DNA of 64,000 bases from Allomuricauda sp. F6463D. Lineage in GTDB: Bacteria; Bacteroidota; Bacteroidia; Flavobacteriales; Flavobacteriaceae. This document shows, piece by piece, positions 41,239 through 45,366 of the stretch. How positions within the stretch are numbered: the first letter of the stretch is position 1; every line of letters starts with the position of its first letter. Below the pieces are notes generated by a model, which saw nothing but the letters and a program-made list of their open reading frames with translations, searched no databases and was not told the DNA's origin. Where the stretch lies: contig NZ_JALKAN010000001.1 of assembly GCF_023015965.1 (NCBI RefSeq), forward strand, positions 1,820,160-1,884,159. Reading direction: 5' to 3'. Both the position numbers and the translations under genes were made by a program.

Positions 41239-41928
41239 CTACAAAATGTTTTTTATTTCAATAAGATTGTTAATCATTTTGCATATACCATGTTCAGAAT
41301 CATTATGGAAATTATAGTGCAGTACCTGCATTCCCATGGTCTTGGCCCCCAGAATATCAGCCTCGAGATTATCTCCAATCATTAATGCGTTTTGTGGGCG
41401 TACCTGAGCTAAGTCTAAAGCCATTTCAAAAATATATGGATCAGGCTTTTTTACCCCGGCCATTTCAGAATCTATAACCTTTTGAAAATAATGATCTATA
41501 CCACTTCCTTTAAGCTTTTTTGTCTGTATTTCTTGAAAACCATTGGTTATGATATGCAATTTATATTTTGGAAAAAGGTATTCCAACGTTGGAACGGTAT
41601 TGGGCAATAAATGGTTAAATGAGGACAGTTGTGCTATATAATCATGAGCTAACATATTGATTACGTCATCTGAGATAGGGGCACGAAGGGCATCGAAAGT
41701 TTGTTTTAATCGTTGATATCGCAATTCTGATTTACTAATTCCATTTTTGCGGTACAACGCCCACATTTGAAAGTTTATAGGGGAATATACTTCCAAAAAT
41801 CCATCTAAATCCACTGGCACTTTATGGTGCTCCAAAATTTTGGCAAAAGTAAGTGAAGAGTTTTTTTCGAAGTCCCAAAGGGTATGGTCCAAATCAAAAA
41901 AGATATCGGTTACCTTATAATCAAACAT
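41239..41928 (-). CDS. yjjG: HAD family noncanonical pyrimidine nucleotidase YjjG
   Basis: A 229-residue HAD hydrolase: motif I FFDLDHTLWDFE, a helical cap, motif II HIITNGF, and KKPDPYIFEMAL with motif III/IV GDNLEADILGA. The YjjG group dephosphorylates nucleoside monophosphates such as dUMP and unusual pyrimidines. The DHTLWDFE variant of motif I is typical of this subgroup. Its start overlaps the end of the deacetylase-like gene by 8 nt. Confidence 0.85.
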   Translation of the reverse strand: MFDYKVTDIFFDLDHTLWDFEKNSSLTFAKILEHHKVPVDLDGFLEVYSPINFQMWALYRKNGISKSELRYQRLKQTFDALRAPISDDVINMLAHDYIAQLSSFNHLLPNTVPTLEYLFPKYKLHIITNGFQEIQTKKLKGSGIDHYFQKVIDSEMAGVKKPDPYIFEMALDLAQVRPQNALMIGDNLEADILGAKTMGMQVLHYNFHNDSEHGICKMINNLIEIKNIL

Positions 41929-43216
41929 AATAACGTTTTAATATGGTTTGATAAAGTTCCATCCAGTCCAATTGCTCTTTCCCTCCCAATAATTCATTGG
42001 AAAAAACCAAATTAAAATCTCCTTTTACCTGCTTTACCATTCGATATACCCGATCCATTTTATCGAAAACCTCATCTTTGGAGCTATACTTTAGCAGGGC
42101 ATAATCGTGCATGGCGAAGGGATGTATTTTTATAGGCTGCCTTACTTCGGTATTAATGTCGTAAAAATAAAATGGTGTGCATGTTCCTGCTCTAAAACCT
42201 ATTTCGTGGGTGTAGCCCATGGAAAAATCATCTGTAAACTCGGTTTCGACCAAATTTCTATAGGTGGCGGGAACATTTACTTTATTGTATCTGAGCCTAG
42301 CATAGTTAATAGGCCTGTTGATTAAGTTCCCTAACTGCTTTTTCTCTTCAAGTAGCACCTTTTTATCCAAGGACGAAACAAATGATGTACTGAGTGAAAC
42401 AATGCTGTAATCCGCTACGGACTTTATTAAATACCTGAACTTGTTATTATTGGTGGACACATTTTTATCATGGGCGGAATGTTTCGCAAATTGAAAAAAG
42501 AACATCGTTTGGATCGGAAACTTTTTATGGATCTCCACCAATTCCAAAAAATTATCATACGGGTCTTTTTTCAGTCTCAACAAAACAGATAAGCGTTCCC
42601 AAACATTTCGGAATTTAAAGTTGGTCAAGTCCAATAAGAAACCACCAATCGTCCTAGAGAACCCTCTCATTGCATAAGAATGTGAGGTGGTAACATTAAT
42701 TATTGAAGTAAAGCGATAGTTGCGCTCCTTCGCCTCTAAATCGGGAAAGCGTTCTTTGAGTGCTTCTAATAATTTTTGTGCCCAAAGATCTACCATCGGC
42801 AGCTCCAAAAAATTGTTTTGATAGGCAATACTTTCCTTTACCGGAAACCTACCAACCGCGTCCTTAACATGTGGCAAATACTCTTCGTACCTGCTCAAAA
42901 GGAAAAAACTTGCAGAGAATATATCAAAGGGAACCGTACTTTTTTCTCCCGATGAAAAAAAACAGGGAATACCTTCCCAATCCGAAACCTTGACCTCCAA
43001 GTCATTGATGCCCTGCTCAAACAATAAGTCGTTGCTCCGAATAAAAAATTCGTTCTGCAACGGCTGTTTGGAATAGGTCATTTTTGGTCCATTATGCTTT
43101 ATGAAATCCTCCACCTTGGTGGTAAAACCGATTTCCACTCCCAAGATCTTAACAAAAATCTGCTTGGCAGTATAGCTCAACCGGTTGGTTACTTTATGGG
43201 TAAATATTAATAACAT
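41921..43216 (-). CDS. polysaccharide-deacetylase-like protein, active site lost
   Basis: A 431-residue relative of the two-domain deacetylases of Bacteroidota (N-terminal DUF7033-type domain, then a NodB-like barrel). The scaffold is preserved: RYEEYLPH near 110, VDLWAQKLL near 143, PATYR (316-320), DDFSMGYTHEIGFRAGTCTPFYFYD (329-353, read in parts). The metal and catalytic positions are not. Where homologues have an aspartate pair after the IxF/TxD strand, this has TTSHS (176-180). The HPS motif is STS (276-278), and the RQH motif is changed to YARL (305-308). It is probably catalytically inactive. This comparison is from memory. Confidence 0.65.
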   Translation of the reverse strand: MLLIFTHKVTNRLSYTAKQIFVKILGVEIGFTTKVEDFIKHNGPKMTYSKQPLQNEFFIRSNDLLFEQGINDLEVKVSDWEGIPCFFSSGEKSTVPFDIFSASFFLLSRYEEYLPHVKDAVGRFPVKESIAYQNNFLELPMVDLWAQKLLEALKERFPDLEAKERNYRFTSIINVTTSHSYAMRGFSRTIGGFLLDLTNFKFRNVWERLSVLLRLKKDPYDNFLELVEIHKKFPIQTMFFFQFAKHSAHDKNVSTNNNKFRYLIKSVADYSIVSLSTSFVSSLDKKVLLEEKKQLGNLINRPINYARLRYNKVNVPATYRNLVETEFTDDFSMGYTHEIGFRAGTCTPFYFYDINTEVRQPIKIHPFAMHDYALLKYSSKDEVFDKMDRVYRMVKQVKGDFNLVFSNELLGGKEQLDWMELYQTILKRYYV

Positions 43217-43219
43217 GCC

Positions 43220-43918
43220 CTACAGTATTCCTTTATCTGCAAAACTAATATATTGGTGTCGGGCCAAAATCAAATGGTCCAGAATTTTTATATCCAAAGC
43301 TTCCGCAGCAATTTTCAATTTATTGGTTATCTGTCTATCTGCCGTGCTTGGTTTCAATGTTCCGGATGGATGGTTATGGGCTAGGATAATCCCCACGGCA
43401 CCCAATTCCAATGCTTGCTTCAACACCAATCTGACATCAACCAAAGTTCCCGTAATCCCGCCTTTACTTAATTGCGCCTTATGCACAACTTTGTTGGAGT
43501 TGTTCAGGTAAACAATCCAGAACTCTTCATGCTGCAACTCACCTATCAATGGATAAAGCAATTCGAACACATCGTGGCTACTCTTTATTTTGGTGATTTT
43601 TGAGGTATCCTCCATTCTTCTGCGCCTGCCCATTTCCAAAGCGGCAGCAATGGTAACCGCTTTTGCCTCTCCAATGCCCTTGAATCGCATCAACTGATTT
43701 ACGGACAGGTTGCCAAGTTCATTTAAATTATGGTTAACTGAGGCCAATATTCTTTTAGAAAGTTCCACAGCACTCTCCTCCCTGCTTCCAGACCCGATTA
43801 AAATAGCAATCAATTCGGCATCGGACAGTACATAACTGCCTTTTTGCACCAATTTTTCCCTTGGCCTATCATCGTCGGCCCAATTTTTAATGGAAAAGGA
43901 AGCTGCTTTTTCTTGCAT
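43220..43918 (-). CDS. radC: RadC family JAB-domain protein
   Basis: A 232-residue protein with an N-terminal helix-hairpin-helix (LMRFKGIGEAKAVTIAA) and a C-terminal JAB1/MPN metal site HNHPSGTLKPSTAD. Its old role in DNA repair is not well supported and the exact function is unknown. It lies 3 nt upstream of the deacetylase-like gene and 53 nt from the divergent DUF1569 gene. Confidence 0.93.
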   Translation of the reverse strand: MQEKAASFSIKNWADDDRPREKLVQKGSYVLSDAELIAILIGSGSREESAVELSKRILASVNHNLNELGNLSVNQLMRFKGIGEAKAVTIAAALEMGRRRRMEDTSKITKIKSSHDVFELLYPLIGELQHEEFWIVYLNNSNKVVHKAQLSKGGITGTLVDVRLVLKQALELGAVGIILAHNHPSGTLKPSTADRQITNKLKIAAEALDIKILDHLILARHQYISFADKGIL

Positions 43919-43971: not shown

Positions 43972-44424
43972 ATGAAATCCCTTTTCAACAACGAGGCCCA
44001 CGAAGAAATTATATCCAGGATCAACAAACTTTCAGATGCATCCGAAGGACAGTGGGGCAAAATGAAAGTCGCACAAATGCTTCACCATTGCCAGTATCCT
44101 TTGAAAATTTCGTTGGGAAGGTATAATCCCGACAACAAACCAAACCCAATGCTTAAACTAGCGGGTATATTTTTTAAGAAGAGTCTTTACAACGATAAAC
44201 CATGGCGGCATGGCCTCCCAACTGCCAAGGGTTTAATAGTTGTGGATGAAAAAATATTTACTGAAGAGAAAGAGGTTTTGATTGACTTGACCAATGATTT
44301 TCATTTGGAAAAAAATAGAAAAAGTTGGGACCCACATCCTGTATTTGGTTCTTTTACACACGAACAATGGGGACAGATGCAGTACAAACATCTAGACCAT
44401 CATCTTCGACAATTTGGGGTTTAG
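43972..44424 (+). CDS. DUF1569 family protein (DinB-like)
   Basis: A 150-residue protein of the DUF1569 group, related to the DinB four-helix bundle. MKVAQMLHHCQYPL and the C-terminal KHLDHHLRQFGV give the conserved histidines that may bind a metal. The ATG at 43972 lies 53 nt from the divergent radC start. It is convergent with the Mur-like gene, with only 4 nt between the stops. Confidence 0.8.
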   Translation: MKSLFNNEAHEEIISRINKLSDASEGQWGKMKVAQMLHHCQYPLKISLGRYNPDNKPNPMLKLAGIFFKKSLYNDKPWRHGLPTAKGLIVVDEKIFTEEKEVLIDLTNDFHLEKNRKSWDPHPVFGSFTHEQWGQMQYKHLDHHLRQFGV

Positions 44425-44428
44425 ATAA

Positions 44429-45319
44429 TTATTTATACGTCGCCATAGCTTCGTAGAACTCCACTTCGTCCACCCCCATTTGCTGACATATCCACTTGGC
44501 TCCTGCCATATTTCTTAAATCTGAAGTTCTTGAAATTTCCAATGGCATTTCGCCATCGGGCGTGTCCAAGAAAAATTCTCCATCGACTTCTTGATAATCC
44601 GGAGTGCCATACAGAAACTTTCTAATGGGATTTTCCGATGATTCCACAAGTTTTCTCACTTCTTCATCTTCTTCGTTATAGGTAATGCTTCCACCTTTTA
44701 CAATCCCGTCCACATATGCACTATATTGTTCCACATAGTTTTCAAAACCTGAGTAAACCCCATTATTCTCAAATCGAATATCACTCAACAAAGCTATATT
44801 GGGTTGATATAATTGAAGTTGTGGAGTTCCATCGATTCCAGATAATGAACTATCACCTTCAATAACAATAAAGTCGTTTTCCTCGGTCAGATGAATTCCA
44901 TGTGGGGCAGATGATGCATAGTCCGCGGCAACATCATTATAATCCAATACATGTAAAATCATAGTAGCAATTGTTGTTTTACATTGGCTACCAGCAACTA
45001 CAACCCTTGTTTTGTATTTTGATAGTTCGTAGAGGAACTCAGGATAAGAAAAAATATGGTGCCCCAATTCTTGGGCCTTGACCAACTCAGGATTACCTTG
45101 TTTTACGCTTGACCCGATTACAACGGCATCTAATTGTGCGTGGATTTTACTGGGCGACCACCCTGTTTCGTTGGACAAAAGTCCTTGCCCTTTCATCAAG
45201 GATGTCAGTGATTCATCAAACACCTCATCACTTCCTGTTATGGTTTCTCCTTTTTTTTGTAGCGCAACGGCCAAGTTGCTCAAATTAGCTTCACCCAATC
45301 CTATAAAATGTACCTGCAT
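44429..45319 (-). CDS. Mpl-like Mur ligase relative, truncated and catalytically altered
   Basis: A 296-residue protein clearly homologous to the N-terminal and central domains of Mpl/peptidoglycan synthetase (usually about 450 residues). HFIGLG.. SNLAVAL, YPEFLYELSKYKTRVVV, TIATMILHVLDY, HLTEENDFIVIEGD, YQPNIALL and NMAGAKWICQ all fit. Every ATP or substrate motif has changed: the P loop is GSQCKTT (110-116) for GSHGKTT; the DH of the central domain reads FENNGVY (183-189); GEHN is RTSD (264-267). The C-terminal ligase domain is absent. The frame is intact with a consensus promoter, so this looks like a maintained pseudoenzyme and not a decaying gene. Family residues are quoted from memory. 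Confidence 0.65.
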   Translation of the reverse strand: MQVHFIGLGEANLSNLAVALQKKGETITGSDEVFDESLTSLMKGQGLLSNETGWSPSKIHAQLDAVVIGSSVKQGNPELVKAQELGHHIFSYPEFLYELSKYKTRVVVAGSQCKTTIATMILHVLDYNDVAADYASSAPHGIHLTEENDFIVIEGDSSLSGIDGTPQLQLYQPNIALLSDIRFENNGVYSGFENYVEQYSAYVDGIVKGGSITYNEEDEEVRKLVESSENPIRKFLYGTPDYQEVDGEFFLDTPDGEMPLEISRTSDLRNMAGAKWICQQMGVDEVEFYEAMATYK

Positions 45320-45336
45320 TGAATCAATTTATCTGT

Positions 45337-45366
45337 CAAAAATAGCCAATGTGCGTACCATTACAA
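45337..45366 (-). promoter_or_regulatory. promoter of the Mpl-like gene
   Basis: On the minus strand TTTG (TTG at 45366-45364), a 19-nt spacer and TATTTTTG (45344-45337) match TTG-N19-TAnnTTTG exactly. It points to the ATG at 45319, only 18 nt away. Confidence 0.75.

Follow-up and report, generated by a model that had tools for sequence, protein, structure and literature searches.

A putative pseudoenzyme derived from a MurC/Mpl-type ligase and cut at the same domain border in several flavobacterial lineages

The short protein and its closest described relatives

The closest described relatives of the protein studied here are MurC (UDP-MurNAc:L-alanine ligase) and Mpl (UDP-MurNAc:tripeptide ligase; 3eag, 3hn7). 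According to the accessible part of PMC3060825, the GKTT motif of MurC holds the triphosphate, a His/Asn pair holds the adenine, a glycine-rich loop holds the UDP and the C-terminal domain makes further ATP contacts; the same part places the border between the central and C-terminal domains of E. coli MurC at 325/326 and reports Psychrobacter Mpl to be a dimer. A Mur ligase relative working inside another protein complex has a precedent in PAP11, the MurE-like subunit of plastid RNA polymerase (available section of PMC9456514), which differs from the present case in being a plant protein of MurE type. The literature searched yielded no description of a non-catalytic or truncated Mpl or MurC. 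PAP11 itself is not known to carry a truncation of the kind described below.

We analysed a 64,000-nucleotide stretch of the genome of Allomuricauda sp. F6463D (the window), in which a sequence-only reading had singled out an intact frame for an Mpl-like protein without any catalytic motif and without the C-terminal domain (Table 1). The frame starts with ATG and contains no internal stop codon, as claimed. Comparison with 52 long-form relatives revealed that the P loop reads GSQCKTT instead of GSHGKTT, that the DH site reads FENNGVY instead of WDHINVF and that residues 264-267 read RTSD instead of GKHN, the HN pair thus being replaced by SD. The claim that every catalytic motif is gone therefore holds for GKTT, DH and HN but not for the functional residue Asp31, which the window protein retains; since Asp31 contacts the UDP diphosphate (accessible part of PMC3060825), some functional residue survives and the loss is not total. 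The stop codon directly follows residue 296, where the long forms run on with GASKRMEK or a similar sequence. A Pfam scan detected the first (PF01225, 35.6 bits, cut-off 21) and middle (PF08245, 27.2 bits, cut-off 24) domains in the window protein and no C-terminal domain (PF02875), in agreement with the reported truncation, the Mur_ligase_C cut-off of 28.4 bits being such that a long form itself scores slightly below it (27.9). Among the 37 members of our set A1, PF01225 matches 36 and PF08245 only 21.

Table 1. Features of the short-form locus (positions in the window).
Feature	Position	Strand	Remarks
DUF7033 protein, weakly VimE-like	41921..43216	-	downstream of the ligase in 19/19 short and 7/7 long genus loci compared
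RadC	43220..43918	-	next same-strand gene downstream (context)
DUF1569/DinB-like protein	43972..44424	+	convergent; ends 4 bases from the short-form stop
Short Mur-ligase putative pseudoenzyme, N-terminal and central domains	44429..45319	-	296 aa
Residues 200-296, second half of central domain	44432..44722	-	most constraint left; RTSD at the GKHN site
Residues 103-199, ATP-site half of central domain	44723..45013	-	erosion of the P loop (AGSQCKTT) and the DH site (FENNGVY); relaxation is fastest here
Residues 1-102, former UDP-MurNAc-binding domain	45014..45319	-	GLGEANL for long-form UDP loop AIGGSAM; loop function from the accessible part of PMC3060825
Promoter-like TTG-N19-TATTTTTG	45337..45366	-	47 bases upstream of ATG; position kept across the genus

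Structure prediction, which had been proposed as a check, indicated that the two-domain Mur fold is retained over the full length of the protein (AlphaFold2 run on 37 aligned proteins from the window and the loci, pLDDT 90.0, pTM 0.89; long homologues included in the alignments behind our models raise model confidence). Residues 1-296 of the model superpose on residues 20-322 of E. coli MurC. The fold of the first two domains is like that of Mpl (Neisseria 3eag_A, Z 31.1, 2.7 Å, 292 residues aligned) and of MurC (Z up to 29.9), and the best sequence match is MurC (NCBIfam E 1.5e-30, PDB 7bva E 7.1e-16). The MurC model TIGR01082 outscores the Mpl model TIGR01081 for the window protein (106.7 versus 62.7 bits) and for both long forms scanned (219.8 and 220.3 versus 165.5 and 163.4 bits), all of these scores missing the respective cut-offs of 335.1 and 388.7, those of the window protein by far. 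The label Mpl is thus provisional. Unlike either enzyme, the window protein lacks GKTT, DH, HN and the third domain, and its genome codes for a separate MurC above cut-off. Its orthologue is an intact ligase of about 450 aa found in other flavobacteria (for example in genomes G009 and G314), with 60% identity over the 296 residues and the same neighbours; this long form differs in having three domains and canonical motifs, and itself falls below both cut-offs.

Short and long forms within the genus

The window genome (G000, 99.98% complete) contains the short-form gene and a single other match (E 8e-4), a frame of 449 aa whose motifs are canonical; it scores 368.6 bits against the MurC cut-off of 335.1 and follows a frame that we take to be MurG-like. 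This MurC was also the only hit when the long-form C-terminal domain served as query, and the window genome holds no intact second copy of the short-form gene, for which the sequence-only reading had suggested looking.

All 71 genomes of the genus Flagellimonas/Allomuricauda carry a match. The short form is present in 25 and the long form (about 450 aa, C-terminal domain at E 1e-56 or better) in 45, including a frameshifted gene (G476) and one divided between two contigs (G024); G029, a fragment in a genome that is 71% complete, is undecided and was not counted. Dropped from the short-form counts were G073 and G362 (frame cut off by the end of the contig), G204 and G289 (fragments or at a contig edge), G433 (just a 456-aa frame, 24% identical), G024 and G476, which was not mended. 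None of the 71 genomes carries both forms. DH and HN are lost in 25/25 aligned short forms of the genus, and canonical GKT[TS] is left in only one, that of G475 (81% identical), the nearest relative of the window protein. The earlier reading would have been undone by relatives with canonical residues around a single decaying copy: canonical long orthologues do exist in 45 genomes, but 25 of the 71 share the short form with its motifs lost, and a single decaying copy is ruled out by these relatives together with the dN/dS values below. The long form is the ancestral state.

Individual genomes depart from the general picture. G475 (L072) has lost DH, HN and the C-terminal domain but still has a canonical GSHGKTS P loop. 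In G476 (L118, 8956-10352), a one-contig genome, a canonical long form is frameshifted into frames of 287 and 202 aa, which may be a real loss or a sequencing error.

That the short form is one part of a split ligase whose C-terminal domain comes from another gene is scarcely credible. The C-terminal domain query found at best a weak frame of about 450 aa in 24 of the 25 short-form genomes of the genus (E 1e-4 to 3e-7) and nothing in the remaining one, and the first two domains have lost their active-site residues as well; no observation in favour of a split ligase was found. No C-terminal relic was detected downstream in the 26 short loci searched, apart from two short chance matches (E 0.59 and 0.94), nor downstream of the short form of G089, from another genus. 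These searches of genomes and downstream regions rule out a split gene in the genus.

Selection, a promoter-like element and regional constraint

The dN/dS ratio lies between 0.08 and 0.18 in 13 short-form pairs (NG86; dS saturated, above 1, in 5/13) and between 0.02 and 0.05 among long forms (4/9 pairs unsaturated), far from the value near 1 that the sequence-only reading had named as evidence against itself. The same reading had described a perfect promoter. The element is present, and it lies at -47/-48 in 19/19 short-form and 5/7 long-form loci examined in the genus; the TTG-N19-TAnnTTTG pattern by itself is weak, occurring 6 times in the window against 1.7 expected. A pseudogene in decay, in which stop codons have simply not yet arisen, would fit the lost catalytic residues, the relaxed rates and the frameshifted long form of G476. 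It is nonetheless highly improbable, for in addition to the dN/dS values and the conserved promoter position, the frame is open in 25/25 short forms of the genus and separate genera share the end point.

Constraint is unevenly distributed along the protein. Among short pairs, dN/dS is 0.10-0.35 for residues 1-102, 0.08-0.26 for 103-199 and 0.05-0.14 for 200-296, each region being computable in 12/13 pairs. The last region is not the lowest in 3/13 pairs, namely G002/G019, G013/G022 and one of G018/G464 or G459/G017, whose regions are not fully rankable owing to saturated dS. Since dS is no lower in residues 200-296, it is the protein that is constrained and not a DNA element. Measured against a species tree built from 12 marker proteins of 60 genomes (3297 columns), short forms evolve faster than long forms by 5.5x, 12.4x and 2.1x in the three successive regions (half-sample ranges 3.9-7.2, 8.4-20.4 and 1.6-2.9; 17 short and 11 long forms). 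In plain identity, residues 200-296 reach 76.1% among short forms of the genus and 78.5% among long forms; because the short set is younger, we used the species-tree-normalised 2.1x in its place. Of 97 columns nearly invariant among 52 long forms, eight short groups retain on average a share of 0.45 for residues 1-102, 0.56 for 103-140, 0.41 for 141-199 and 0.73 for 200-296.

Rebuilding of the active site for a new enzymatic activity would be compatible with the fold retained in the model. We consider it very unlikely, as the half of the central domain that held the former active site is the least constrained and newly fixed residues are few, with 5 positions reaching at least 92% across the 25 short forms of the genus.

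Short forms beyond the genus and the number of truncations

A match was found in 377 of the 397 genomes sampled within the family, and comparison by eye of the match table with that of the C-terminal search left 13 with a match but without the C-terminal domain at 1e-20. Two of these are contig ends, one has a MurC-like frame only and 10 are short: two each in the window's genus, g43, g114 and g139, and one each in g72 and g51. G046, from another family of the order (f12, represented by this one genome), has a short form too. Truncation at the border between central and C-terminal domain is thus seen in short forms from five further genera and a second family, and the 15 short forms whose ends were inspected stop at -1 to +6 residues relative to it. 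The g139 proteins start at about residue 93 and consist of the central domain alone (about 93-296), the N-terminal domain being gone; their model (pLDDT 95.6) is closest to the central domains of MurC and Mpl (Z 22.7 and 21.7). The most clear-cut case is genus g51, which comprises both G314, long and canonical, and G089, whose short form ends four residues beyond the border and reads GSQSKNT and RENIN, with GEHN still there; the flanks of G089 are colinear, with RadC and DUF7033 coming next.

Across the short forms, GKT[TS] is left in 2/33 (G475 and G329, with GKTS) and HN in 0/33. Position 10 of the UDP loop is Gly in 52/52 long forms and still in G089, and is Asp or Glu in 30 of the 31 short forms with that residue (Ser in G081); this change in separate lineages was possibly selected against phosphate binding. 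If the short form were a small-molecule sensor that no longer ligates, for example of muropeptides or a nucleotide, one would understand why most short forms retain both binding domains, why the window protein retains Asp31 and why GKTS is left in two genomes. The acidic UDP loop, the loss of GKT[TS] from nearly all short forms, the missing N-terminal domain of g139 and the low constraint on the ATP site, the least constrained of all, make such a sensor unlikely.

The species tree has short forms at six positions: the main group of the genus, G481 next to the long G030, g114 with g43, g139, g72 next to the long G347, and f12; g51, which is outside the tree, would make a seventh. Taken together with synteny, this tree points to six or seven truncations, while gene trees alone give fewer. 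The full-column gene tree requires 3 changes and gathers 21 of the 24 short rows into a single starred group, as would be expected if all short forms were one old paralogue or transferred lineage, and the grouping of g1, g114, g43 and g139 is tolerated by the AU test on columns variable among long forms (p 0.444). Such a single lineage is nevertheless improbable. A single clade of all 24 short rows was rejected (p 0.018); without the columns invariant among long forms the short forms are dispersed, with 7 changes, though well-supported branches force only 1; G089 pairs with the long G314 of its own genus; and short forms occupy the ligase locus in g1, g114, g72 and g51. The AU tests, which used 135 columns variable among long forms, a quick tree and groups named after the trees had been seen, also gave p 0.461 for G481 with G030 and p 0.666 for g114 with g43, a better fit than the free tree. 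Long branches are in play in these tests of origin (G329, G046, G152 and G347).

The sister species G030 (L027, long) and G481 (L117, short) are paired by the markers, and the long form of G030 groups with that of G028. Recombination may have given G030 its long form back, in which case that part of the genus would have seen a single loss.

A role that may have outlived ligation

With catalytic motifs lost and both frame and predicted fold kept under purifying selection, the short form is very probably a maintained pseudoenzyme. The motif loss, its presence in 25 of 71 genomes of the genus and the dN/dS of 0.08-0.18 all bear out this proposal of the sequence-only reading. A full-length MurC/Mpl-type ligase gene would have lost catalysis and been cut exactly at the border between the central and C-terminal domains, its product being retained as a folded, putatively expressed protein. 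What has been lost (ATP site, UDP site and third domain) serves ligation and what is kept is the second half of the central domain; the simplest account would place a second, non-catalytic role there, with the short form embodying that role alone. The intact flavobacterial enzyme would accordingly do two jobs, ligation in recycling and a non-catalytic one residing mainly in that half, and all parts serving ligation only would be shed once ligation is no longer selected. The second job was probably already present in the long form, and a protein contact is the somewhat favoured guess as to its nature: perhaps scaffolding or regulation of some other protein of the cell wall or envelope, rather than binding of UDP-MurNAc or ATP. 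The sequence-only reading had suggested a regulator or a binder of muropeptides or of Mur enzymes; binding of UDP-MurNAc by the short form is unlikely because the UDP loop is altered and the whole domain is lost in one genus.

The explanation that we favour overall, and hold to be fairly likely, is that of a former ligase kept for a remaining role in residues of about 200-296, probably protein contact. Even chances are given to the wider reading that the flavobacterial Mpl-type ligase is bifunctional and that its non-catalytic role in the second central-domain half, the more indispensable one, outlived catalysis in several lineages, each pared to the same border and one to the central domain alone. 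Residues 200-296 are themselves relaxed about twofold, the full-column gene tree groups most short forms together and short-form genomes still have the recycling genes tested, all of which counts against the favoured explanation; maintenance of the fold alone could also explain part of the constraint pattern. Pseudoenzymes are already known; here the domain dissection of a cell-wall ligase would have been repeated by nature several times, showing which part can be shed. The same cut in separate branches suggests a second, non-enzymatic job for the enzyme family, and one genus with both short- and long-form species makes it possible to test whether an intact recycling enzyme hides such a function.

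There is no support for the idea that catalysis was lost because the entire recycling route had gone, the LdcA family being present in 25/25 short-form genomes of the genus and an AmpG-like match, called so only because all scores fall below the family cut-off, in 24/25. The AmpG-like match (TIGR00901, E 1e-10) is present in 69/71 genomes of the genus and absent from the window genome, which could be an assembly gap. A match to the LdcA family (PF02016) is absent from 11/71 genomes of the genus, and all eleven have the long form of the ligase.

Every locus compared in the genus, 19 short and 7 long, has the gene order SDR, ligase, DUF7033; clustering did not find RadC between the ligase and DUF7033 in three short loci (G018, G464 and G478). 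The DUF7033 protein is a candidate for functional linkage with the ligase, and its match to the deacetylase VimE is below cut-off.
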